Below, piece by piece: positions 4,799 through 22,583 of a DNA stretch of 62,088 nt. The DNA is from Candidatus Kuenenia stuttgartensis. Lineage in GTDB: Bacteria > Planctomycetota > Planctomycetia > Gemmatales > Gemmataceae. The stretch covers positions 1-62,088 of the forward strand of contig CAMDHK010000004.1 in assembly GCA_945897965.1 (NCBI GenBank). Direction: 5' to 3'. Numbering within the stretch: position 1 is the stretch's first letter; each line of letters opens with the position of its first letter. Below the pieces are notes generated by a model. That model ran no database searches. It had not been told where the DNA came from and saw only the letters and a program-made list of their open reading frames with translations. The translations under genes were made by a program, and so were the position numbers.

Positions 4799-6193
4799 AT
4801 GTCCAAGGATAAGTTACTTTTTGTAACTGGAAAGCTAGCAAGCCCTTCACTAAAGGATTTACTTTCCAGGATGACGGAGTCATTACCATTTGATTGGGAA
4901 ATTAACACATTACCAATAAATGTAGCAGCATTGGCAACTATGGAATGGATTAGTTCACATTTAAAAATAACGAACAAACCTGACAAAATAATAATCCCTG
5001 GCTTATGTAGAGGAGAAGCAAAAATTTTAGAAATCCAAACAGGAATTCCTTGCATAAAAGGTCCCAAAGACCTTCGAGATTTACCTAACTTTTTAAAGGT
5101 TGGAAATTTTAATGCGACGAACCCTGATTATGGAAAGTACAACATCGAGATAATAGCGGAAATAAATCACGCGCCTGATTTATCCTTGGAAGAGATCGAA
5201 ACTACAGCCATCTATCTTACTTCACAGGGTGCGGATATTATTGATCTAGGAATGAATCCTGGAACACCTTGGGTACAAGTTGGGGAATGTGTTAAAAGAC
5301 TAAAAAAACTAAATATTAAAGTTTCCATCGATAGTTTTAATCCCGTGGAAGTAGAAAGCGCAGTAAATGCAGGGGCAGACTTGGTTTTAAGTATCAACGA
5401 AGATAATCTTGAAATTGCCAAACATTTAGAATGCGAATTTGTTCTGATACCAAAAGAACCAGGTAGACCAGAAACTTTAATTAAATCTGTTGAAAAACTA
5501 CTGAGTTGGAACCGTAAATTTAGAATCGACCCAATTCTTGAACCCATCGGGCTTGGCTTCGCAAAATCATTACTCGGATATTATAAAGCCCGGGAACTTT
5601 ATCCAACGATTCCCATGATGATGGGAATTGGAAATGTAACCGAATTAACAGATTCAGATTCTTCAGGGATCAATGCATTATTAATTGCAATATGCCAAGA
5701 ACTTAATATTCAAAGTGTTTTAACAACTTCCGTTATTAACTGGTGTAGAACTACAGTTAAAGAAATAGATCTTGCTAGGAAATTGATGTTTCATGCCATC
5801 ACAAAGCAAGTAATTCCCAAGCGATTAGAACCGGGATTACTATTACTAAGAGATCCGACCGAACGAAGGCATGGAATAGAAACACTTAACCGATTCAAGT
5901 CGGAAATAAAGGACAAGAATTTCAGGATATTTGCCGAAGACGGATTAATCCACATCATGAATAAAAACATTCATCTGATGGGTCAAGATCCTTACAAATT
6001 AATTGAGGAAGTGAAAAAAACAGAAGAAATAGATGAATCGCATTCTTTTTATTTAGGATTTGAACTTTGTAAAGCGATGACTGCAATTACACTGGGAAAA
6101 AATTACACTCAGGATCAGGAATTACAGTGGGGTTTCTTAACTCGAGAAGAGAACATCCATCGTAATCCGATGATAGATAAAAAAACTGATTAA
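4799..6193 (+). CDS. Archaeal-type dihydropteroate synthase-related protein (DUF6513 + pterin-binding domain)
   Basis: A 464-residue protein. The first about 95 residues (LFVTGKLA..., IIPGLCRGE) resemble the domain I know as DUF6513; residues about 115-330 form a pterin-binding TIM barrel: EIIAEINHAP, GADIIDLGMNPGTP, VSIDSFNP, and GLGFAKSL followed by MMMGIGN. This matches the dihydropteroate-synthase-related family known from methanogens and from bacteria that use tetrahydromethanopterin, rather than folate FolP (a canonical folP is at 55390-56250). The expected role is joining a pterin to an aminobenzoate-type acceptor, or another pterin step. It sits 30 bp upstream of pabB on the same strand, so the two are probably co-transcribed and both concern p-aminobenzoate-derived cofactors. 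Family recognition is from memory of motif patterns; the exact reaction is inference. Confidence 0.75.
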   Translation: MSKDKLLFVTGKLASPSLKDLLSRMTESLPFDWEINTLPINVAALATMEWISSHLKITNKPDKIIIPGLCRGEAKILEIQTGIPCIKGPKDLRDLPNFLKVGNFNATNPDYGKYNIEIIAEINHAPDLSLEEIETTAIYLTSQGADIIDLGMNPGTPWVQVGECVKRLKKLNIKVSIDSFNPVEVESAVNAGADLVLSINEDNLEIAKHLECEFVLIPKEPGRPETLIKSVEKLLSWNRKFRIDPILEPIGLGFAKSLLGYYKARELYPTIPMMMGIGNVTELTDSDSSGINALLIAICQELNIQSVLTTSVINWCRTTVKEIDLARKLMFHAITKQVIPKRLEPGLLLLRDPTERRHGIETLNRFKSEIKDKNFRIFAEDGLIHIMNKNIHLMGQDPYKLIEEVKKTEEIDESHSFYLGFELCKAMTAITLGKNYTQDQELQWGFLTREENIHRNPMIDKKTD

Positions 6194-6223
6194 GAACTTT
6201 ACAACCTAAGAAAAGATTGAATA

Positions 6224-7666
6224 GTGATTTCACCGTACATCAAAAAAATAAGTATGCCAATAAGCCAAAGAGAGGCTTTTTTAAGATTGCAAAATCTTCC
6301 TGGATTGTTGTTCCTTGAAGGAAACGCCAGTGGCAGTGATTATGCTTTTTTAACTGCAGATCCTTTTAAAGTTTTGGAAAAACAAGCAGACACAAAATAC
6401 CAACCAAGTGACATATTAAAAACCTTACGAAGTGAATATAGCCGTTGGAAAATTAAACCAACGGATGGAGTCCCTCCATTCCAAGGGGGGATGGCAGGGC
6501 TATTTGGCTATGGATTATCAAAACAAATAGAAAAGTTACCTTCGGATAGCAAAGCTTTTATCTCATCGCCTGACTTATCAATAGGCTTTTACGACTGGGT
6601 TCTATCATTTGATTTACGAAAAGAGGAAGTCTGGCTGGTTTCAACTGGTTTTCCTGAAACGACTGAAAATTTACAGACCCTTCGTGCTAAAAATCGTGCC
6701 GATATGGTTCTTAAATTGCTGGAAACTCCAACGAAAATCCATCAGACAAACTTTACTCAGAAAGAATTAAGCTATACAGCTCCTGAAAATTTATTCAGGT
6801 TATTTGATGACGAGCATTTTTATTGTGACAATTCCGCGATTGACTACATGAAAAGCGTTAAAAAAAGTATTGAATACATCAATGCAGGAGATTCGTTTCA
6901 GATCAATTTATCACAAAGGTTCTGGCATCCAAAATTTTGCGATGACCGATTGCTTTACGAATTACTTTCAAAAACATCCCCTGCCCCGTTTTCATGCTAT
7001 CTAACTACTTCGATGGGCAATATTTTAAGCGCATCTCCTGAAAGATTTCTAACCCTCCAAAATAACAAAGTAATAACAAGTCCAATTAAAGGAACAAGGC
7101 CCAGAGGAAAAACAGAACAAGAAGATATCGAGATGGCCAATTCTCTTCTAAATAGCCCAAAAGATAGAGCTGAAAATGTAATGATTGTAGATTTGCTCAG
7201 AAATGATCTGGGGCGCGTTTGCTCATTCGGAAGTATTCAAGTAGAAGAACTTTGCAAACTTGAAACATTCTCAAATGTACACCATTTAGTTTCCAAAGTT
7301 ACAGGCAAGCTAAAGCCAGAGCATGATGCATTAGATTTATTGCTTTCATGTTTTCCAGGAGGATCTGTCACAGGGGCCCCGAAGATACGATCGATGGAAA
7401 TAATCTCCGAGTTAGAAACATCACCCCGTGGGATTTATTGCGGCAGCGTTGGGTATCTTGGTTTTGATGGATCCATGGACACAAACATTTTGATACGAAG
7501 TATATTTTCATCAGAAAAATGGCTGCAATTTGGAGCGGGTGGCGGGATTGTTGCAGATTCGAAACCTAACGATGAATACCTTGAAACTTTAAACAAGGCT
7601 TCAGGGATTATACAAACTATTCGCTCTCATCCAGACTCGATTAATTTGATTCAATTAAAGCGCTAG
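6224..7666 (+). CDS. pabB: Aminodeoxychorismate synthase component I (PabB)
   Basis: A 480-residue chorismate-binding enzyme that aminates chorismate to 4-amino-4-deoxychorismate for p-aminobenzoate synthesis. Family motifs: GLFGYGLSK (93-100), INAGDSFQINLSQRF (219-233), SASPERF, PIKGTRPRG (287-295), ENVMIVDLLRNDLGRV, CFPGGSVTGAPK and GGGIVADS. The Lys in PIKGT (K289) is diagnostic: PabB uses this lysine covalently, whereas anthranilate synthase has Ala there. No glutaminase (PabA) or lyase (PabC) is fused or adjacent, so they must lie elsewhere. The start is uncertain: GTG at 6224 or the in-frame ATG at 6254, neither with a strong ribosome site. Its last 26 bases overlap the convergent oxidoreductase gene. 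Confidence 0.92.
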   Translation: MISPYIKKISMPISQREAFLRLQNLPGLLFLEGNASGSDYAFLTADPFKVLEKQADTKYQPSDILKTLRSEYSRWKIKPTDGVPPFQGGMAGLFGYGLSKQIEKLPSDSKAFISSPDLSIGFYDWVLSFDLRKEEVWLVSTGFPETTENLQTLRAKNRADMVLKLLETPTKIHQTNFTQKELSYTAPENLFRLFDDEHFYCDNSAIDYMKSVKKSIEYINAGDSFQINLSQRFWHPKFCDDRLLYELLSKTSPAPFSCYLTTSMGNILSASPERFLTLQNNKVITSPIKGTRPRGKTEQEDIEMANSLLNSPKDRAENVMIVDLLRNDLGRVCSFGSIQVEELCKLETFSNVHHLVSKVTGKLKPEHDALDLLLSCFPGGSVTGAPKIRSMEIISELETSPRGIYCGSVGYLGFDGSMDTNILIRSIFSSEKWLQFGAGGGIVADSKPNDEYLETLNKASGIIQTIRSHPDSINLIQLKR

Positions 7667-8756
7667 GATTTACTGCTTGGTGCGTTGAAGCTGAAATCAT
7701 AACCGCTTCGCACAAAGCAATAGTTAAAAGGTTATCGTCACCACTGATTTCGGGCTCGATCCCCAGTTCGACCGCACGCAATAATTGAGCCATTGTGCCT
7801 ACAAAAGCATCGGGAAACCAAACTTCATTCCATACTGGTGAATGCCATTTACCATTGTCACCAACAGTGGTGAACTCCAAGGTACTTGGAATTTTTTCCG
7901 GATATTTAGGCCAACCGATGGTACCTTTAGCCATACCAAGAGTACCTTCAATACGCCAACGAATATAAATATCCTCGCCCGCACCTTCCTTGGCAGGCCC
8001 CGCCCAAACATCATCCCAAGAAGAAGCGCGTGCTCCGGAATCATATTCGAGGATGTATAAATTAACGCCATCGGTGTGCGAAAATTTAGTTCTTGGGTCT
8101 TTGGTAGTACTAGCAAAAACTAGGTTTGGGTTCCCCAACCAATAGCGAAAAGTATCTAAATGATGAATGCTCATGATAAAAGTTGAAAGCGATTTTAAAC
8201 CTTTGGCCCAAGGCATCCAATGCGGAATAGCTCGCATTTCAATGGTAGCCAGAACGATATCTCCAAGTTTTCCTGAATTTAAAAGAGACTTAGCAACCCT
8301 TACCGATTGATCAAAACGCATATTTTGATTCACTGCAAGAGTGACTGACTTTTGTTTGCAGGCATTAACCAATTTTTTTGCAGTAAGCAAATCCATGGCA
8401 AGAGGCTTTTGGGCTAAAATTCCCCGCAATTTTTTAGATTGCTCAAGGGCCTTCATTATAATTTCTGGTTGAGCTTCCGGTGGAACCGCAATATCTAAAA
8501 TATCAAAGTCACCATGTTCAAGCATTTCATCAATCGAATCATACACGACTGGGATATTATGATTTAAAGCAACTTCTTTTGCTTTATCTTTAGATCTTGA
8601 AGCAATGCAAGAAACATGAAATCCCGCACTTTTATAAGCAGGGATCTGGCAATCTTTCATAATAAAACCAGAACCTATACATCCTATCTTGAAATCTTTT
8701 TTCACAGGAAGAATTGGAAGTCTTGAATCTACAAGATGCTTGATAAAGTTATCCAA
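7641..8756 (-). CDS. Gfo/Idh/MocA-family NAD(P)-dependent oxidoreductase
   Basis: A 371-residue oxidoreductase. The Rossmann domain starts at about residue 23 with IGCIGSGFIMKDCQIPAY, then SRSKDKAKEVA; the family's EKPLA motif appears as AQKPLA with its catalytic-region Lys kept; the substrate half has IHHLDTFRYWLG, matching the family's histidine motif. Such enzymes usually oxidise or reduce sugars, inositols or related polyols; the substrate cannot be told here. The start codon is TTG at 8756, supported by TAGGAAC six bases upstream and by the lack of any in-frame ATG before the Rossmann motif. It follows ispH by 16 bp and is probably co-transcribed, with no obvious metabolic link. Confidence 0.88.
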   Translation of the reverse strand: MDNFIKHLVDSRLPILPVKKDFKIGCIGSGFIMKDCQIPAYKSAGFHVSCIASRSKDKAKEVALNHNIPVVYDSIDEMLEHGDFDILDIAVPPEAQPEIIMKALEQSKKLRGILAQKPLAMDLLTAKKLVNACKQKSVTLAVNQNMRFDQSVRVAKSLLNSGKLGDIVLATIEMRAIPHWMPWAKGLKSLSTFIMSIHHLDTFRYWLGNPNLVFASTTKDPRTKFSHTDGVNLYILEYDSGARASSWDDVWAGPAKEGAGEDIYIRWRIEGTLGMAKGTIGWPKYPEKIPSTLEFTTVGDNGKWHSPVWNEVWFPDAFVGTMAQLLRAVELGIEPEISGDDNLLTIALCEAVMISASTHQAVNPSALIESN

Positions 8757-16283: not shown

Positions 16284-17117
16284 TTACTTCTGAGTTGAAT
16301 TTGAAAAATTTATAATGAAACCATCTTTCATATCAGTTTGTTTCCATGCGGAATATTTTGTTTTAAAAATGGTTTTCCTTTCATCAATTTCCTGATTGGC
16401 TATTTGTTCATTCTTGGATAAAGGCCCCCATACAATTTTAAAAGGCCCGATTTCAGAATAAATCAGAACAACATCATCCTTAACTTCAATCAAACAACCG
16501 GTAGGGAATACAACCCCTGAAAAACAACCGAGAATTTTAGCACACGAAATAACCTGCTCATTTTTCCACTGAACCCCTGCTTTATCAGTTGGGAAAGGTA
16601 ATGGTAATGCAAGAACAGGTAATCCAACTTGCGGTGCATTTTTGGGTAAAATAACGCCATTAACATCAACCACCCTAAATTTATCCGCTGCTTCAATTTG
16701 ATCTTTAATCGGGGTTATGGGAACTACCAATGCTGGGGTTCGAAACTCTAAGATAACCTTTATTTTTTGCGGACCTTCCCTTTGTACATCAACAACTTTT
16801 TGAACCCAAGGGTGAACCTGAAATGCGTTAAAAATTCGTGCCAATATCCCCTCTTCCAACAAATCATATTCTTCTTTCAAATTTCCGAGATAACGAACTT
16901 CATTAAGAAATTCTTCTTTGGACAAGACGAGCGGAAGAGAACAGTTAATATTTGCAAATAGCTGTAAAGAATTATGACGGGAAACAATTAGTCGATTAAA
17001 AGAGTAATCGGCTTTAGATAGAAAATGAATTAAAACGCCACATGAGACGAATGATACAACGATTACAAAACAAAAACCTAACCAAGAGAAGACTATATTT
17101 TTCACAATATTATCCAC
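16284..17117 (-). CDS. FtsQ-like POTRA membrane protein
   Basis: A 277-residue protein with a short cytoplasmic tail and one transmembrane helix (about 8-32), then an extracytoplasmic part. Residues about 95-165 read like FtsQ/DivIB: a POTRA-like stretch, HPWVQKVVDVQREGPQKIKV, then LEFRTPALVV, FRVVDVNGVILP and LPVLAL, matching the FtsQ ER-P and D-x-G patterns. FtsQ is a division scaffold in most bacteria. Its place 11 bp downstream of murB copies the murB-(ddl)-ftsQ order of the division/cell-wall cluster, which supports the call. The start is GTG at 17117 (a second GTG is four codons later), without a strong ribosome site. Divergence is high, so the name is provisional. Confidence 0.6.
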   Translation of the reverse strand: MDNIVKNIVFSWLGFCFVIVVSFVSCGVLIHFLSKADYSFNRLIVSRHNSLQLFANINCSLPLVLSKEEFLNEVRYLGNLKEEYDLLEEGILARIFNAFQVHPWVQKVVDVQREGPQKIKVILEFRTPALVVPITPIKDQIEAADKFRVVDVNGVILPKNAPQVGLPVLALPLPFPTDKAGVQWKNEQVISCAKILGCFSGVVFPTGCLIEVKDDVVLIYSEIGPFKIVWGPLSKNEQIANQEIDERKTIFKTKYSAWKQTDMKDGFIINFSNSTQK

Positions 17118-17128
17118 TTACAACTTAA

Positions 17129-18022
17129 TTACCAGATGGCGATTTCAAGTTCCAGATCCACATTGAATCTTTCGCGAATCCCTTGTTTAATTTGCTCAAT
17201 CAATCTTAAAACGTCTTCAACTACAGCATGTGGGTGGATAACAATGTAATTTGAATCACGATCACAAATCTCAGCACCTCCGACCCTGGCTTTTTGAAAT
17301 CCCCCCTGCTCCATCAATGATGCAGCAGTAAGGCCCCTTGGGTTTTTAAATATTTTACCGGCATAAGGAACGCCAAGTGGCAATTGAATTTTCCTACTAA
17401 TCCAAGCTTTTCTCAACCTTTTGACAATCGATTCAGTCTTGTCATGCTCAAATGCAAATTCAACACTCAGAATCACCAAATCTCTGAGATCGTTTCCTTT
17501 ATCACTAAAAGAAATTTCTTCTTTATCCCGAATTTGAAGATTTCCAAGCGAATCCAGCACTTCAATTTTTCTGACGAACCTTGAAATAGGTCCAGATTTA
17601 TCACTAGTATTTGAAAGTAAAGCACCACCAATCGTACCTGGTATGCCAATAAGTGTTTCAAAACCAGCCATGTTATTTTGTGAACAAAATGATATTGCTT
17701 CAAAAATAGAAGCACCAGCCCCCATGCGCACCGTGTTTCCTAGATTTTCAAAACCACAAAATACTGGATTCGTCAATTTAACAACTACACCAGAAACGAT
17801 GGCACTTCGTATAAGTAGGTTACATCCATTACCTAAAATTTTGAATGGGATTTTATTAGTCTTGCAGGCTATATAAAGCGCAGCCAACTCTTCTTTGCTG
17901 CGCGGTTCAGCTAGATACTCGCAAACACCAGCTAAACCCGAGAATGTATAGGGCGATAAAGACGACGACTTCTTCAATATCGGTTCAAATTCCATTAAGC
18001 ATTTCATTTCAAACCCCATCAT
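17129..18022 (-). CDS. murB: UDP-N-acetylenolpyruvoylglucosamine reductase (MurB) with substituted active-site residues
   Basis: MurB reduces enolpyruvyl-UDP-GlcNAc to UDP-MurNAc in peptidoglycan synthesis. FAD-domain motifs are present: ILGNGCNLLI (62-71) and ETLIGIPGTIGGAL (122-135), and the C-terminal half aligns well (ARVGGAEICDRDSNYIVI, LELEI with Glu293). However, the residue equivalent to the proton-donor Ser229 of E. coli (Ser or Cys in relatives, GSVF or GCIF) is Lys223 in AGKIFKNP, and the YR arginine motif appears as DK (Lys175). By-eye alignment suggests altered or lost catalysis. Length is normal. Four in-frame ATGs occur in the first ten codons, so the start is uncertain. It is followed by the ftsQ-like gene. 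Confidence 0.85.
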   Translation of the reverse strand: MMGFEMKCLMEFEPILKKSSSLSPYTFSGLAGVCEYLAEPRSKEELAALYIACKTNKIPFKILGNGCNLLIRSAIVSGVVVKLTNPVFCGFENLGNTVRMGAGASIFEAISFCSQNNMAGFETLIGIPGTIGGALLSNTSDKSGPISRFVRKIEVLDSLGNLQIRDKEEISFSDKGNDLRDLVILSVEFAFEHDKTESIVKRLRKAWISRKIQLPLGVPYAGKIFKNPRGLTAASLMEQGGFQKARVGGAEICDRDSNYIVIHPHAVVEDVLRLIEQIKQGIRERFNVDLELEIAIW

Positions 18023-18164: not shown

Positions 18165-18854
18165 ATGAATTCCATCACAAGCAAAGAACTTATTAATTAT
18201 CCATCTGCGGTATTAGTAAGTGGTGGTCTGGATAGTGCAATATTATTGGCAGACATGGTCAACCATAAATTTCCTAAGGTGTGGCCAATATTTATTCAAT
18301 GTGGGCTCTATTGGGAAAAAACCGAATTACATTACCTGAAAAAATTCATTACTGCGATTGAGGCCCCCAACCTAGGCGAATTAGTTGTACTCGATATTCC
18401 CGTTAGTGATTTGTACAAAGATCACTGGAGCCTGACTGGAATTAATGTTCCGGATACAGAATCCCCAGATGAAGCTGTTTTTTTGCCAGGACGAAATGTT
18501 CTTTTGACTGCGAAGTCTCTTTTATGGTGCAATCTTAATCAAGTTAAGAGCCTTTCATTGGCAGTTTTAGAATCCAACCCCTTCCCCGATGCAACTGATA
18601 GCTTTTTTCTTGGCATGGAACAGACCATTAACGAATCGGTTTCCGGAAATGTAAAATTACTTAGGCCCTATGCGGGAATGCATAAAACCGATGTTTTAAA
18701 ATTAGGTAGGGAGGCTCCATTGGAATACACTTTTTCCTGCATTTATCCAACAAATGGCATTCATTGTGGCAAATGCAATAAATGTGCTGAAAGAAAAAAT
18801 GGCTTTATCAATGCTTCTATGAAAGACCCAACTTCTTATTTCTATGAACAATAA
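18165..18854 (+). CDS. queC: 7-cyano-7-deazaguanine synthase (QueC family)
   Basis: Converts 7-carboxy-7-deazaguanine to preQ0 in queuosine/7-deazaguanine synthesis. The 229 residues contain the PP-loop LVSGGLDSAI (17-26), LPGRNVLLTAKS, the substrate-region PYAGMHKTDVLKLG and the C-terminal zinc site built from CIYP and HCGKCNKCAERK (four Cys). GAGGG lies seven bases before the ATG. No queD, queE or queF is adjacent and no preQ1 riboswitch was seen upstream. The sequence is somewhat divergent in the middle, so specificity for a related deazapurine is possible. It converges on the ATP-grasp gene with a 10-bp gap. Confidence 0.88.
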   Translation: MNSITSKELINYPSAVLVSGGLDSAILLADMVNHKFPKVWPIFIQCGLYWEKTELHYLKKFITAIEAPNLGELVVLDIPVSDLYKDHWSLTGINVPDTESPDEAVFLPGRNVLLTAKSLLWCNLNQVKSLSLAVLESNPFPDATDSFFLGMEQTINESVSGNVKLLRPYAGMHKTDVLKLGREAPLEYTFSCIYPTNGIHCGKCNKCAERKNGFINASMKDPTSYFYEQ

Positions 18855-18864
18855 GGAAACTAAA

Positions 18865-19902
18865 TCAAGGCCCACGCTTCCAAGCACGAGTCACAAGATT
18901 TTCGAGAAAAACGCCATAGGTCTGGTTAGCTGAATCAAGACTAATCGCCAATCCGGTAACAATATGAAGGTCAGGATTTGGATTAACTTCAATAACATAA
19001 ATAGTATCATCGGAAGAAACCCGCATATCGATTCTTCCGTAATCACGAATACCAAGAGCAAGATAAGCGCGTTTTACGGTGTCTTTTACCCTAACCATTA
19101 GCTCAGGCGTAAGTTTGGCAGGATACTCATAGGGAGTTCCCTCGAATTCAAGGGATTCAGGCTTCCATTTGGCATCATAAGAGATAATAGGCCAAAGCCC
19201 TTTGTTTCGAATGGTAAAGTGAATTTCGGAGGGTGCAAGAACCGTAATCTCAGGGTCTTCAATAACAGCAGCAGTAAGTTCCCTGCCATCAATAAACTGC
19301 TCTACTAAAACGGGGGGCCCATAATTTTTAAGCAATAACTTAACCCGCTCCACGAGATCATTTTGACATGTAACCACACTACCTTGGTCAACTCCGATGC
19401 TGGCATCTTGGGTTGCAGGCTTAACAATAACAGGCCAACCTAAATTGTTTTCTGGAACATTCTCATCGTTAACCCAAAAAAAGCCGGGAGTACATACGCC
19501 ATAAGATTGCAGCACGGCCTTGGCTAGGGCTTTGTTTCGGCCAACAGCAAGGGCTTGGGACTTGGAACCGGTAAATGGAATTTTCATCCATTCTAGAAGC
19601 CCAGCAAGGTGTACTTCCGTTTCAGTAAAATCCGCAAATCCTTCAAACATGTTAAAAACAATATCTGGCGGATCAGAATTTAACCTTTGGATCAGAGGGC
19701 CCAAATCTCTGGCGAGGCCAAATCTTTCAAATCTTACGCCTTGCTCCGCAAGTGCGTTTTCAATAATTTCAACCGTTTCGATAACTTCATGTTCAGAATC
19801 AGCATCAGGATGATCTAAAGGCAAAACAGGGATGTTATGAAGTATCATCACTTTGAATGGTGATTGCGGAACAACAACATTAGTAGGCGGAATTTCATTC
19901 AT
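18865..19902 (-). CDS. Ddl-type ATP-grasp ligase, second of a tandem pair
   Basis: A 345-residue ATP-grasp ligase of the D-Ala-D-Ala ligase group. Visible motifs: VFNMFEGF (the EG of Ddl), IPFTGSKS, KPATQDASIGV (ATP lysine and Gly-rich loop), VEQFIDGREL, ISYDAKW (matches the Ddl omega-loop YxxK), YGRIDMR and EVNPNPDL (metal-binding Glu/Asn). The product would be a dipeptide or other amide made through an acyl phosphate. True D-Ala ligase activity is uncertain because substrate-loop residues differ. The start is ATG at 19902; a longer frame to 19998 would add 32 hydrophobic residues overlapping the upstream gene, where no homology is seen. It is 55 bp downstream of its paralogue. Confidence 0.85.
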   Translation of the reverse strand: MNEIPPTNVVVPQSPFKVMILHNIPVLPLDHPDADSEHEVIETVEIIENALAEQGVRFERFGLARDLGPLIQRLNSDPPDIVFNMFEGFADFTETEVHLAGLLEWMKIPFTGSKSQALAVGRNKALAKAVLQSYGVCTPGFFWVNDENVPENNLGWPVIVKPATQDASIGVDQGSVVTCQNDLVERVKLLLKNYGPPVLVEQFIDGRELTAAVIEDPEITVLAPSEIHFTIRNKGLWPIISYDAKWKPESLEFEGTPYEYPAKLTPELMVRVKDTVKRAYLALGIRDYGRIDMRVSSDDTIYVIEVNPNPDLHIVTGLAISLDSANQTYGVFLENLVTRAWKRGP

Positions 19903-19957
19903 AAAGAAAGTGTATAAGTTTGAAAGAATATGTAAAAGAAAAAGCAGGGTATAAAAA

Positions 19958-20953
19958 CTAGAGTCCCAGCCTTTTCGTAGCCGTTTCAAAAACAGCAAGG
20001 ATCAAATCCTTGTAAGACCATCCCATACCCTTGGCAATCAAACCAAAATCGCTGGTTACTGGATTAAGCCCGGGCAAAGGATTTGCTTCGATAAAAACAG
20101 GATGGTTACTGGAGTTTAAGCGGAAATCAATTCTTGCAAAATCTTTGCACCCTAGGGCTTTAAAAGCCTTAATGGCACTACTAAATAAAACGCCAAGAGT
20201 CTCAGTTGAAATTTTTGGCGGCACGCAGTAATCAACCCTAGTTAAATAATTCCTCTTTACATCCAGACTATAGATGAAGAATTCGTCCTTAATTTTCGGG
20301 ACAATTTCCATCGCACCTACAACCTTAAGTCCATCGCCATTACCAATTAATCCAACAGTGATTTCACATCCTGGCAAATATTCTTCAACGATTACTGGTT
20401 GGTCATATCCTTTTAGGGCATCATTTAACAAGGTTCGAAGTTGCTCTTGTGTTTTAGCAACAGCGGAATCCCTTATCCCTTTACTAGAACCTTCCCAAGC
20501 AGGTTTGACAACGACCGGGAATGCGAAATCAATTGGTATAGAACCCAAATCAAAGCTATCAGAGGTAAAAACTGCCCCCTTTGGGACCTTTACACCTGCA
20601 TCACATACAATTTTTTTAGCTACATCCTTATCCAACCCAACACAAAGGGTAAAAGGATCTGAACCAGAATAAGGAATACCAAGGATTTCTAATAATGCGG
20701 GAACCCGTGCTTCTCTGGCCCTGCTTGCGCCACGACCTTCAGCAAAGTTAAAGACAAAATCAGGACGATCATTAATGAGTGCCGCTGGTAAGTCAGGAGA
20801 CTCAGCAAAATATATAATTTGATGATTTTTTGAGGCTAGAACCGCACCGATTGCATGCATTGTTTCTGGTGAATCAAATTCTTCTTCGAAATCATCAGTG
20901 TGCGTATGTTTGATTACGCCTGATTTTAAATTGCAAACAATCCCTATTTTCAT
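19958..20953 (-). CDS. Ddl-type ATP-grasp ligase, first of a tandem pair
   Basis: A 331-residue ATP-grasp protein. Motifs: MKIGIVCN at the start, FNFAEGRGASRAREA (EG element), GIPYSGSDP, VVKPAWEGSSKGI (Ddl-type GSSxG loop), EEYLPGCEITVGLIG, ARIDFR and FIEANPLPGLNP (metal ligands). It keeps all ATP/Mg residues of Ddl, but the omega loop (IYSLDVKRNYL) lacks the usual YEAKY tyrosine-lysine arrangement, so the acceptor amino acid probably differs from D-alanine. The start is ATG at 20953 with GGGGAG four bases upstream, rather than a longer frame from 20992 that runs into the kamA terminator. Its only 5' space is that terminator, so it is expressed by read-through or from a promoter inside kamA. 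Confidence 0.85.
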   Translation of the reverse strand: MKIGIVCNLKSGVIKHTHTDDFEEEFDSPETMHAIGAVLASKNHQIIYFAESPDLPAALINDRPDFVFNFAEGRGASRAREARVPALLEILGIPYSGSDPFTLCVGLDKDVAKKIVCDAGVKVPKGAVFTSDSFDLGSIPIDFAFPVVVKPAWEGSSKGIRDSAVAKTQEQLRTLLNDALKGYDQPVIVEEYLPGCEITVGLIGNGDGLKVVGAMEIVPKIKDEFFIYSLDVKRNYLTRVDYCVPPKISTETLGVLFSSAIKAFKALGCKDFARIDFRLNSSNHPVFIEANPLPGLNPVTSDFGLIAKGMGWSYKDLILAVFETATKRLGL

Positions 20954-20963
20954 GATACTCCCC

Positions 20964-21004
20964 AATAACAAAAATAAAGCCGCCAAGTACAACCTGGCGG
21001 CTTT
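20964..21004 (-). terminator. Hairpin terminator or attenuator between kamA and the ligase genes
   Basis: AAAGCCGCCA and TGGCGGCTTT (20976-20985 and 20995-21004) form a 10-bp stem with a 9-base loop. On the minus strand it is followed by ATTTTTGTTATTG. It lies 17 bp after the kamA stop and 10 bp before the ligase ribosome site, so it must limit or tune read-through. Confidence 0.8.
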
Positions 21005-21021
21005 AAATTAACTAAAAACCC

Positions 21022-22497
21022 CTAGCGGGCCTTCCCAGGAGCAACTTTCTTTTTAATACCCAACTCTATTAAAGAATTAGGCACATTTTCATTTTCAGAT
21101 GAACCATTATCATTTTCAGATGAGCCATTATCATTTGAAGAGCAACCAGAGGAAGCTTCTTCAGCAGATAAAGTAGCAAGGTTCATTTGACGGCGAATCA
21201 TTCGTTCAGCATTTTCAGGGATTAAAGCTGATTTACTACCCTGAAGAAGCGAACTTACGCCTCGCGTTCTACCTTGGTCATTACTTTGCAAAAGTTTATC
21301 CTCTGCTTGGTAACGAACAAGCATGCCTTCATAATTACGAAGTACAACAGCATCATCAGAAGCCGAGATTACATAATTTGGCATCACAGGAATCTTACCG
21401 CCACCATGCGGGCTATCCACTACATAAGTTGGAATACCCAAGCCAGACATATGGCCACGAAGACCTTCCATGATTTCCATTCCCTTCCAGATAGAGGTGC
21501 GGAAATGCCCAGCACCAATAACAGGATCGCAATGAAAGATGTAGTAAGGTCGCACTTTAATACGAAGTAAACCTCGCATCAACTTGCGCATGGTATCTAG
21601 GGAATCATTAACCCCTTTAAGGAGGACCGTGTGATTATTCACAGGAATCCCAGCCTTCAACAAAGACATGCAAACCTTTGCAGATTCTGCAGATATCTCG
21701 TTAGGATGATTAAAATGAGTTTGAATATAAACTTTCCCTACGGAGGCTAAAAGATCAATCAATGACTGATCAAACAATCGCTGAGGCAAAGTAACGGGAA
21801 CGCGAGTTCCTATACGAATAACATCAACATGAGGAATAGCAGCAAGATTTTCGAGAAAGAATTTAAGTTTTGTAATCGGGAGGGTTAGAGGATCCCCACC
21901 AGAAACAATAACATCTCGAATCTCAGAATGATCACGAACATATTCAACCATACGCTCATCATTACGGCTGATTGAATCCCAGCCACCACGAACCATAGTA
22001 GCACGCTTGCGGGTACAAAACCTGCAATACATAGTACAAACATGTGTGGTAACAAGCAAAGCCCTATCAGGATACCTGTGAGTTAAACCTGGAACAGGTG
22101 AATCCTTGTCTTCTTCCAAAGGGTCAGACAATTCATAACCAGACGGGTTGGTAAGTTCCAATGGTGAGGGTATGGACTGAAGCCTAATCGGGTCATCATG
22201 GTCTTCAGGATTAATCAGTGAGAAGTAATAAGGTGGAATAGCAGTTTTGTACTCAGTTTCCAATGACCCTATGGCTTCCATTTCCTCGGGGCTAAAGGCA
22301 ATTAAGCCCTTGAGTTGCCTAACTGATCGTATGGCATTTTGTGATTGCCAACGCCAGTCGTTCCATTGGTGATCCGGAACATCGCGCCAAATGGGGTGAC
22401 GCTTCGGCTTACCGGGAGGTTCTTCGCTATCGCCACCCCCGAATTGATCGGCGAATGGAACGGGTGCCACCTCGGCTCGCACATCGGATTCACTCAT
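21022..22497 (-). CDS. kamA: L-lysine 2,3-aminomutase (KamA), radical SAM
   Basis: Isomerises L-lysine to L-beta-lysine with a [4Fe-4S]-SAM radical and PLP. In the 491-residue protein the cluster motif is CTMYCRFC (Cys154, 158, 161). HCDP has Asp324, VVDSP has Asp361, and GGGKIPVMPNYV has PLP Lys368; the spacing 37 and 7 equals that of Asp293, Asp330 and Lys337 of the clostridial lysine enzyme, which bind the lysine epsilon-amine and PLP. This favours lysine over glutamate as substrate. The tail after about 410 is a low-complexity Ser/Asn/Glu stretch with a 21-bp tandem repeat. The start is ATG at 22497 with GGAGG upstream; a TTG at 22515 would overlap that site. It is too long for EF-P modifying EpmB, which also lacks these aspartates. 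Confidence 0.93.
   Translation of the reverse strand: MSESDVRAEVAPVPFADQFGGGDSEEPPGKPKRHPIWRDVPDHQWNDWRWQSQNAIRSVRQLKGLIAFSPEEMEAIGSLETEYKTAIPPYYFSLINPEDHDDPIRLQSIPSPLELTNPSGYELSDPLEEDKDSPVPGLTHRYPDRALLVTTHVCTMYCRFCTRKRATMVRGGWDSISRNDERMVEYVRDHSEIRDVIVSGGDPLTLPITKLKFFLENLAAIPHVDVIRIGTRVPVTLPQRLFDQSLIDLLASVGKVYIQTHFNHPNEISAESAKVCMSLLKAGIPVNNHTVLLKGVNDSLDTMRKLMRGLLRIKVRPYYIFHCDPVIGAGHFRTSIWKGMEIMEGLRGHMSGLGIPTYVVDSPHGGGKIPVMPNYVISASDDAVVLRNYEGMLVRYQAEDKLLQSNDQGRTRGVSSLLQGSKSALIPENAERMIRRQMNLATLSAEEASSGCSSNDNGSSENDNGSSENENVPNSLIELGIKKKVAPGKAR
21090..21131. repeat. Two-copy 21-bp tandem repeat in the kamA tail
   Basis: Two nearly identical 21-bp units at 21090-21110 and 21111-21131 differ at one base and encode a repeated DNGSSEN-type heptad in KamA, with degraded partial copies on both sides. 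It marks an expandable, probably disordered tail. Confidence 0.85.
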
Positions 22498-22554
22498 AAA
22501 CCTTATAACCTCCAAAAGAACTCTGAAATCTTGCCTATAACTTTAAACCTAAGA

Positions 22555-22583
22555 AATATAACACCTGTTATTTTCAGCTGCAA
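22555..22583 (-). promoter_or_regulatory. Probable kamA promoter (extended -10)
   Basis: On the minus strand, TTGCAG (22583-22578), a 17-base spacer and TATATT (22560-22555) preceded by TGT. The -10 is five of six with an extended TGN element; the -35 is weak. The leader would be about 50 bases. Confidence 0.45.

Follow-up and report, generated by a model that had tools for sequence, protein, structure and literature searches.

What does a lysine 2,3-aminomutase gene do beside two genes for enzymes that resemble D-Ala-D-Ala ligases (Ddl)? This question arises from a 62,088-nucleotide stretch of DNA (contig CAMDHK010000004.1 of assembly GCA_945897965.1), hereafter called the window, which is filed under Candidatus Kuenenia stuttgartensis, is placed in the family Gemmataceae by GTDB, and has Gemmatales as its closest named relatives. 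On the minus strand of the window, kamA is followed by genes for two Ddl-fold ATP-grasp ligases, which we call LigA and LigB in that order. An initial annotation of this DNA proposed from gene order that an amino-acid mutase and two amide-forming ligases serve one pathway, and this idea is now strongly supported by the co-occurrence of the genes and by their conserved adjacency across phyla. Indeed, they form a conserved module of these enzyme types that is kept by selection, and a GNAT acetyltransferase that the annotation had missed is its fourth member. We propose, with a probability of roughly 0.65, that KamA, LigA, LigB, and GNAT constitute a small-molecule pathway making a short, probably N-acetylated beta-lysine peptide.

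The coupling of kamA to LigA is seen in Planctomycetota, from which 392 genomes were surveyed. AblA-grade kamA genes are present in 81 of these genomes and LigA in 69, with both in 65 of the 69 LigA genomes. Of the four genomes seeming to have LigA only, at least two do show traces of kamA, either as a fragment where a contig ends or as a match of reduced length. The two genes are 6 kb apart or less in 52 genomes, compared to about 0.2 close pairs expected, by our own estimate, from random placement in genomes of ~5 Mb. The association (Fisher p = 1.5e-53, a value inflated by relatedness between genomes) recurs in many families, and a chance neighborhood of kamA and the ligases is ruled out by the genome surveys. 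The initial annotation was prepared to abandon its proposal if most relatives carried kamA without the ligases, and the survey came out in its favor. Gene order varies between KamA-LigA-LigB and LigA-LigB-GNAT-KamA (gene calls in high-GC loci were scored by codon usage, with homology given priority). In a tree of kamA sequences, those sampled from genomes where kamA and LigA are unlinked group with the linked ones, and nine of those sampled from genomes without LigA form a separate clade with weak support (0.69).

The module is also found in other phyla. A scan of species genomes with a LigA alignment gave at least 575 matches; the best 80 were taken and provide 80 loci, some of which are interrupted by contig ends. 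Among these 80, KamA, LigA, LigB, and GNAT occur together in 29 loci, KamA with both ligases in 10, and KamA with LigA in 22. The four-gene form is present in Planctomycetota, Chloroflexota, Deltaproteobacteria/Myxococcota, Acidobacteriota, and Riflebacteria (Ozemobacter), where phylum labels are those in the titles of the records, nearly all of which are metagenome-assembled. Clostridia, including the cultured Papillibacter cinnamivorans DSM 12816, have LigA followed by KamA with no GNAT beside them, and the remaining ligase matches in the Papillibacter genome are weaker and Ddl-like. Within Gemmatales, kamA is carried by 24 of 26 genomes and GNAT by 25 of 26, and neither occurs in five class outgroups. 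The KamA of one genome from the same family (G409) is at zero distance in the kamA tree from that of Gemmataceae bacterium SKYG72. Searches of plasmids with LigA and LigB returned distant ATP-grasp proteins only, and the single locus opened has no such cluster in its annotation. On the Rhizobium leguminosarum plasmid pRlvC (L250:4493-7101), a KamA-family gene comes right after a gene labeled "acetyl-CoA carboxylase biotin carboxylase subunit family", which is possibly another pairing of kamA with an ATP-grasp gene.

The GNAT acetyltransferase, of about 160 amino acids, adjoins LigB or forms its C-terminal fusion in many genomes. In the window, no GNAT is linked or fused to LigB, which nonetheless belongs to a clade whose members elsewhere have a C-terminal GNAT domain or an adjoining GNAT gene. 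The one GNAT homologue of the window's genome lies on another contig (G000:C181:7563-8063, E value 1e-40), and in a tree this protein and its order relatives nest inside the cluster GNAT family, beside those of Chloroflexota. Neither the cluster GNATs nor this homologue match the NCBIfam model for AblB, the beta-lysine acetyltransferase, and RimI-type models are weakly matched. Among the loci compared, no gene for a transporter, a carrier protein, or the cell wall is found repeatedly alongside the core genes. A gene for a DUF3109 cysteine-cluster protein stands beside the cluster or LigB in several planctomycete loci (L058:6083-6664, L063 after LigB, L084, L104, L109:9031-9627, L110, L153, and L154), but was rejected as a fifth member because it is found in only part of the loci.

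KamA should turn lysine into beta-lysine, judging from its conserved residues. It scores above the cut-off of the KamA family TIGR00238 and matches the solved L-lysine 2,3-aminomutase 2a5h with an E value of 1e-126. Its radical S-adenosylmethionine (SAM) motif CxxxCxxC reads CTMYCRFC (residues 154-161). The lysine-binding residues D324 and D361 and the pyridoxal phosphate Lys, K368, located within the motifs CDPVIG and VDSPHGGGK, lie in a region that aligns to 2a5h without gaps and are spaced by 37 and 7 positions, exactly the clostridial spacing that had been claimed for them. The lysine-binding Asp pair is kept in every KamA checked from a complete cluster. The C-terminus of the window's KamA (window 21084-21130) carries an imperfect short repeat, SSENDNG/SSENENV, which has fewer copies in congeners.

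The two ligases are distinct proteins, as was originally described, sharing about 31% identity. They match Pfam PF07478 (Dala_Dala_lig_C) with 125 bits for LigA and 97 bits for LigB, and reach 139.7 and 124 bits with the curated Ddl model TIGR01205, whose cut-off is 245.65. AlphaFold2 models of LigA and LigB have a mean predicted local distance difference test (pLDDT) score of 90 each, and their best Foldseek matches are solved Ddl structures. When residues are mapped onto E. coli DdlB, an alignment that is loose at the N-terminus near E15, K97, K144, E180, E187, K215, R255, D257, E270, and N272 are retained in both enzymes. The ATP/Mg residues of Ddl are present in LigA and LigB, in agreement with the initial annotation. 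The DdlB residue Y216 is replaced by Arg in the window's LigA and by Trp in LigB, both ligases have an invariant Arg (R278/R294) at the position of M259, G276 is an Asp (Asp311) in LigB, and S281/L282 are gapped or replaced. The statement that the first ligase lacks the omega-loop YEAKY needs correction. The segment is present in LigA but diverged, reading YSLDVKR rather than the YDYEAKY of Ddl (SYDAKW in LigB), and the Lys equivalent to DdlB Lys215 (K233 in LigA) is invariant and is kept by LigB as well.

Relatives of both ligases occur in other settings. Myxobacteria and related genomes encode a fused double-LigA protein of 714 to 892 amino acids (L176:5969-9719, L157, L166, L167, L170, and L174), and all six loci have a Peptidase S58 family gene nearby. 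This family includes beta-aminopeptidases, and such a neighbor would fit a beta-peptide, although we treat this as a lead only. LigB-like genes without kamA were left out of the module; they fall mostly in separate clades, one of which (L079, L080, L085, and L086) adjoins a putative zinc metallopeptidase (Peptidase_Mx).

The resemblance to Ddl raises the possibility that LigA, LigB, or both are cell-wall D-Ala-D-Ala (or D-Ala-D-X) ligases and that kamA is a neighbor with its own role. Beyond the fold and the PDB matches, no other full-grade Ddl was found in the window's genome, and the genes immediately downstream include one for MurB (17129-18022) and one that is possibly FtsQ-like. We nevertheless consider this explanation very unlikely. 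MurF is the enzyme that uses D-Ala-D-Ala, and no full-grade MurF match was found in Gemmatales, including two single-contig genomes. Therefore, D-Ala-D-Ala would be without a user in this order, and the missing MurF and the changed active-site residues together disfavor a peptidoglycan role. The D-Ala-pocket residues are altered in both ligases, whose scores are far under Ddl cut-offs, the cluster is also present in organisms with separate Ddl-like genes such as Papillibacter, and the distribution of LigA follows kamA and not cell-wall genes. Moreover, murA, murC, murD, murF, and murG are reported to be lost from Gemmatales (PMC12283558). The modified peptidoglycan piece that the initial annotation listed among possible products is thus disfavored, and the near order-wide retention of the module despite the absence of MurF supports a pathway of the kind we propose.

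Two other explanations accept KamA as a source of beta-lysine but assign the ligases differently. In one, beta-lysine, or its peptide, is attached by the ligases to some macromolecule, for example a protein, a lipid, or a polymer of the cell surface. The beta-lysylation of EF-P by EpmA and EpmB is a precedent that combines a KamA-type enzyme with a ligase, the DUF3109 gene accompanies the cluster or LigB in several loci, and the module is near-universal in Gemmatales. However, the core genes have no recurrent partner for a carrier protein, a lipid function, or a target protein, and those Ddl-fold ligases whose function is known link free amino acids or hydroxy acids, making this outcome improbable. 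EF-P beta-lysylation itself was rejected, as the KamA score against the EpmB model TIGR03821 (225.3 bits) is too low relative to the cut-off of 369.3. In the other, which we regard as slightly less credible, KamA feeds the N-epsilon-acetyl-beta-lysine pathway (AblA/AblB), and the ligases belong to a separate pathway that is merely co-retained. This would account for an AblA-like KamA and for a GNAT that is part of the cluster in many genomes, but the GNATs do not match the beta-lysine acetyltransferase model, they travel with LigB to the point of fusion, and Clostridia have KamA and LigA with no GNAT beside them.

In the beta-lysine peptide pathway that we favor, KamA would convert L-lysine to beta-lysine by radical SAM and pyridoxal phosphate chemistry, as its conserved residues predict. 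LigA would join beta-lysine to another amino acid via an acyl-phosphate to give a beta-lysine dipeptide, a role we assign to it because it is the sole ligase in the minimal clostridial version. LigB would then add a further residue, and GNAT, which in other lineages adjoins LigB or is fused to it and in Gemmatales is encoded apart, would acetylate the product or a precursor. The nested gene content, with KamA and LigA at its core, then LigB, then GNAT accompanying LigB, suggests such sequential steps and is the reason for the order proposed. Our guess for the role of the product is that of a soluble metabolite used under stress, for instance as a compatible solute. This is the most economical role, given that the core has no recurrent transporter, carrier-protein, or cell-wall gene beside it, and it is suggested by analogy with N-epsilon-acetyl-beta-lysine and with N-acetylglutaminylglutamine amide (NAGGN).

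Several observations weigh against this proposal. Gene association alone is no proof of a shared product, and the enzyme assignments are inferred for all members. KamA reaches 459.8 bits with the AblA equivalog model TIGR03820, below the cut-off of 525.4, and the clostridial enzyme's C-terminal CxCxxC zinc motif (CNCDVC in 2a5h) is absent from the window's KamA and from the cluster KamAs searched. Because of this score and the missing motif, KamA may act on some lysine-like compound instead of free L-lysine. Some genomes have kamA and the ligases apart; those with kamA and LigA unlinked come mostly from a single family, the rest being two class-mates and one further genome. The GNAT gene is unlinked almost throughout Gemmatales, and in the congener G396 (88% complete) GNAT is present but no kamA or ligase was found. 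Since some relatives also carry two GNAT copies, one fused and one unlinked, the unlinked GNAT is only a candidate for a pathway role in the window's lineage.

Strong purifying selection acts on kamA, LigA, and LigB, for which a genus comparison gives ratios of nonsynonymous to synonymous substitution (dN/dS) of 0.02 to 0.07 (0.04 to 0.07 for kamA alone). The gap between kamA and LigA contains a hairpin (z = -3.8) whose stem is identical in four congener genomes. Given the low dN/dS values and the unchanged stem, both the genes and the hairpin are maintained. The initial annotation viewed this hairpin as a sign that the genes may not be a simple operon. The structure is real, but it does not argue against the association, as the same genes abut or overlap in other genomes. 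An Rfam search of the cluster region gave no match. In one congener (G393; L186, about 6900-8000), LigB is broken into two open frames of 256 and 120 amino acids, perhaps by an assembly error.

Table 1. Positions in the window of the three module genes and the hairpin.
Feature	Position	Strand	Remarks
kamA, lysine 2,3-aminomutase-type radical SAM/pyridoxal phosphate enzyme	21022..22497	-	491 aa, ATG at 22497
Hairpin in kamA/LigA gap	20975..21005	-	14 bp, U-rich tail; terminator, attenuator, or processing site
LigA, Ddl-fold ATP-grasp ligase	19958..20953	-	331 aa, ATG at 20953
LigB, second Ddl-fold ATP-grasp ligase, without GNAT	18865..19902	-	345 aa, ATG at 19902

A QueC-like gene (window 18165-18854; 91 bits with Pfam QueC, under the NCBIfam QueC cut-off) separates LigB from murB and is encoded on the opposite strand. 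Beyond it, murB and the possible FtsQ-like gene (16284-17117, recognized by eye with no family match) lie side by side with no ddl between them (window 16284-18022). In an order from which most peptidoglycan genes have been lost, this pair may be what is left of a cell-division cluster. Elsewhere in the window's genome, a single contig (G000:C85:235-825 and 5958-6230) has a frame with a Mur-ligase middle domain (793 amino acids) and a frame with an ATP-grasp match (671 amino acids), which suggest a cyanophycin-synthetase-like locus.

Somewhat more tentatively, at less than even odds, acetylated beta-lysine di- or tripeptides, the products of a dedicated pathway of KamA, LigA, LigB, and GNAT, may be a widespread new class of compounds that Gemmatales, Dehalococcoidia, and other lineages have as a core metabolite, for instance as a compatible solute. 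If so, "D-Ala-D-Ala ligase" annotations in bacteria lacking MurF would be mislabeled peptide synthases, and the presence of Ddl-looking genes in Gemmatales despite the loss of most peptidoglycan genes would be explained. An unrecognized amino acid-derived metabolite would be common to a large number of bacteria, including several that are difficult to culture, and nearly universal in Gemmatales. The KamA and LigA pair would offer a genetic handle for a metabolomic search for the compound, and ATP-grasp enzymes would gain two specificities in the making of beta-amino-acid peptides. Searches of the open-access literature turned up no account of the KamA/ligase pair or of the four-gene module, and its novelty is provisional. 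A 2009 survey of ATP-grasp amidoligases by Iyer and colleagues may contain such neighborhoods.

The closest known systems share some features with the module. NAGGN synthesis also combines a GNAT domain with an ATP-grasp ligase to yield an acetylated dipeptide osmolyte, but its ligase is of another family, KamA is not involved, and in our module the GNAT is C-terminal to LigB. EpmA and EpmB likewise pair a ligase with a KamA-family enzyme; however, EpmA is a tRNA-synthetase paralogue and not an ATP-grasp protein, and the score of the module's KamA falls well short of the EpmB cut-off. In a lichen Nostoc, an operon contains an additional Ddl-like enzyme, a "type 3" D-Ala-D-Ala ligase, for which the authors suggested peptidoglycan modification (PMC5987646). 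Lysine 2,3-aminomutase (LAM) appears among the abbreviations of that paper, and the operon may be related to the module, with LAM a possible member. The D-Ala-D-Ala ligases Ddl and VanA/VanG share with LigA and LigB their fold and their ATP/Mg residues, and the catalytic scaffold is for the most part the same. Unlike these enzymes, LigA and LigB have Tyr216 replaced, Arg at Met259, Ser281/Leu282 lost, and, in LigB, Gly276 changed to Asp, and they occur where MurF is absent. The AblA/AblB system, which makes an osmolyte in methanogens and some bacteria, likewise has a KamA-type aminomutase, a GNAT, and an expected beta-lysine intermediate. The module departs from it in a KamA that scores below the AblA cut-off, in a GNAT that does not match the AblB model, and in the addition of two Ddl-fold ligases.

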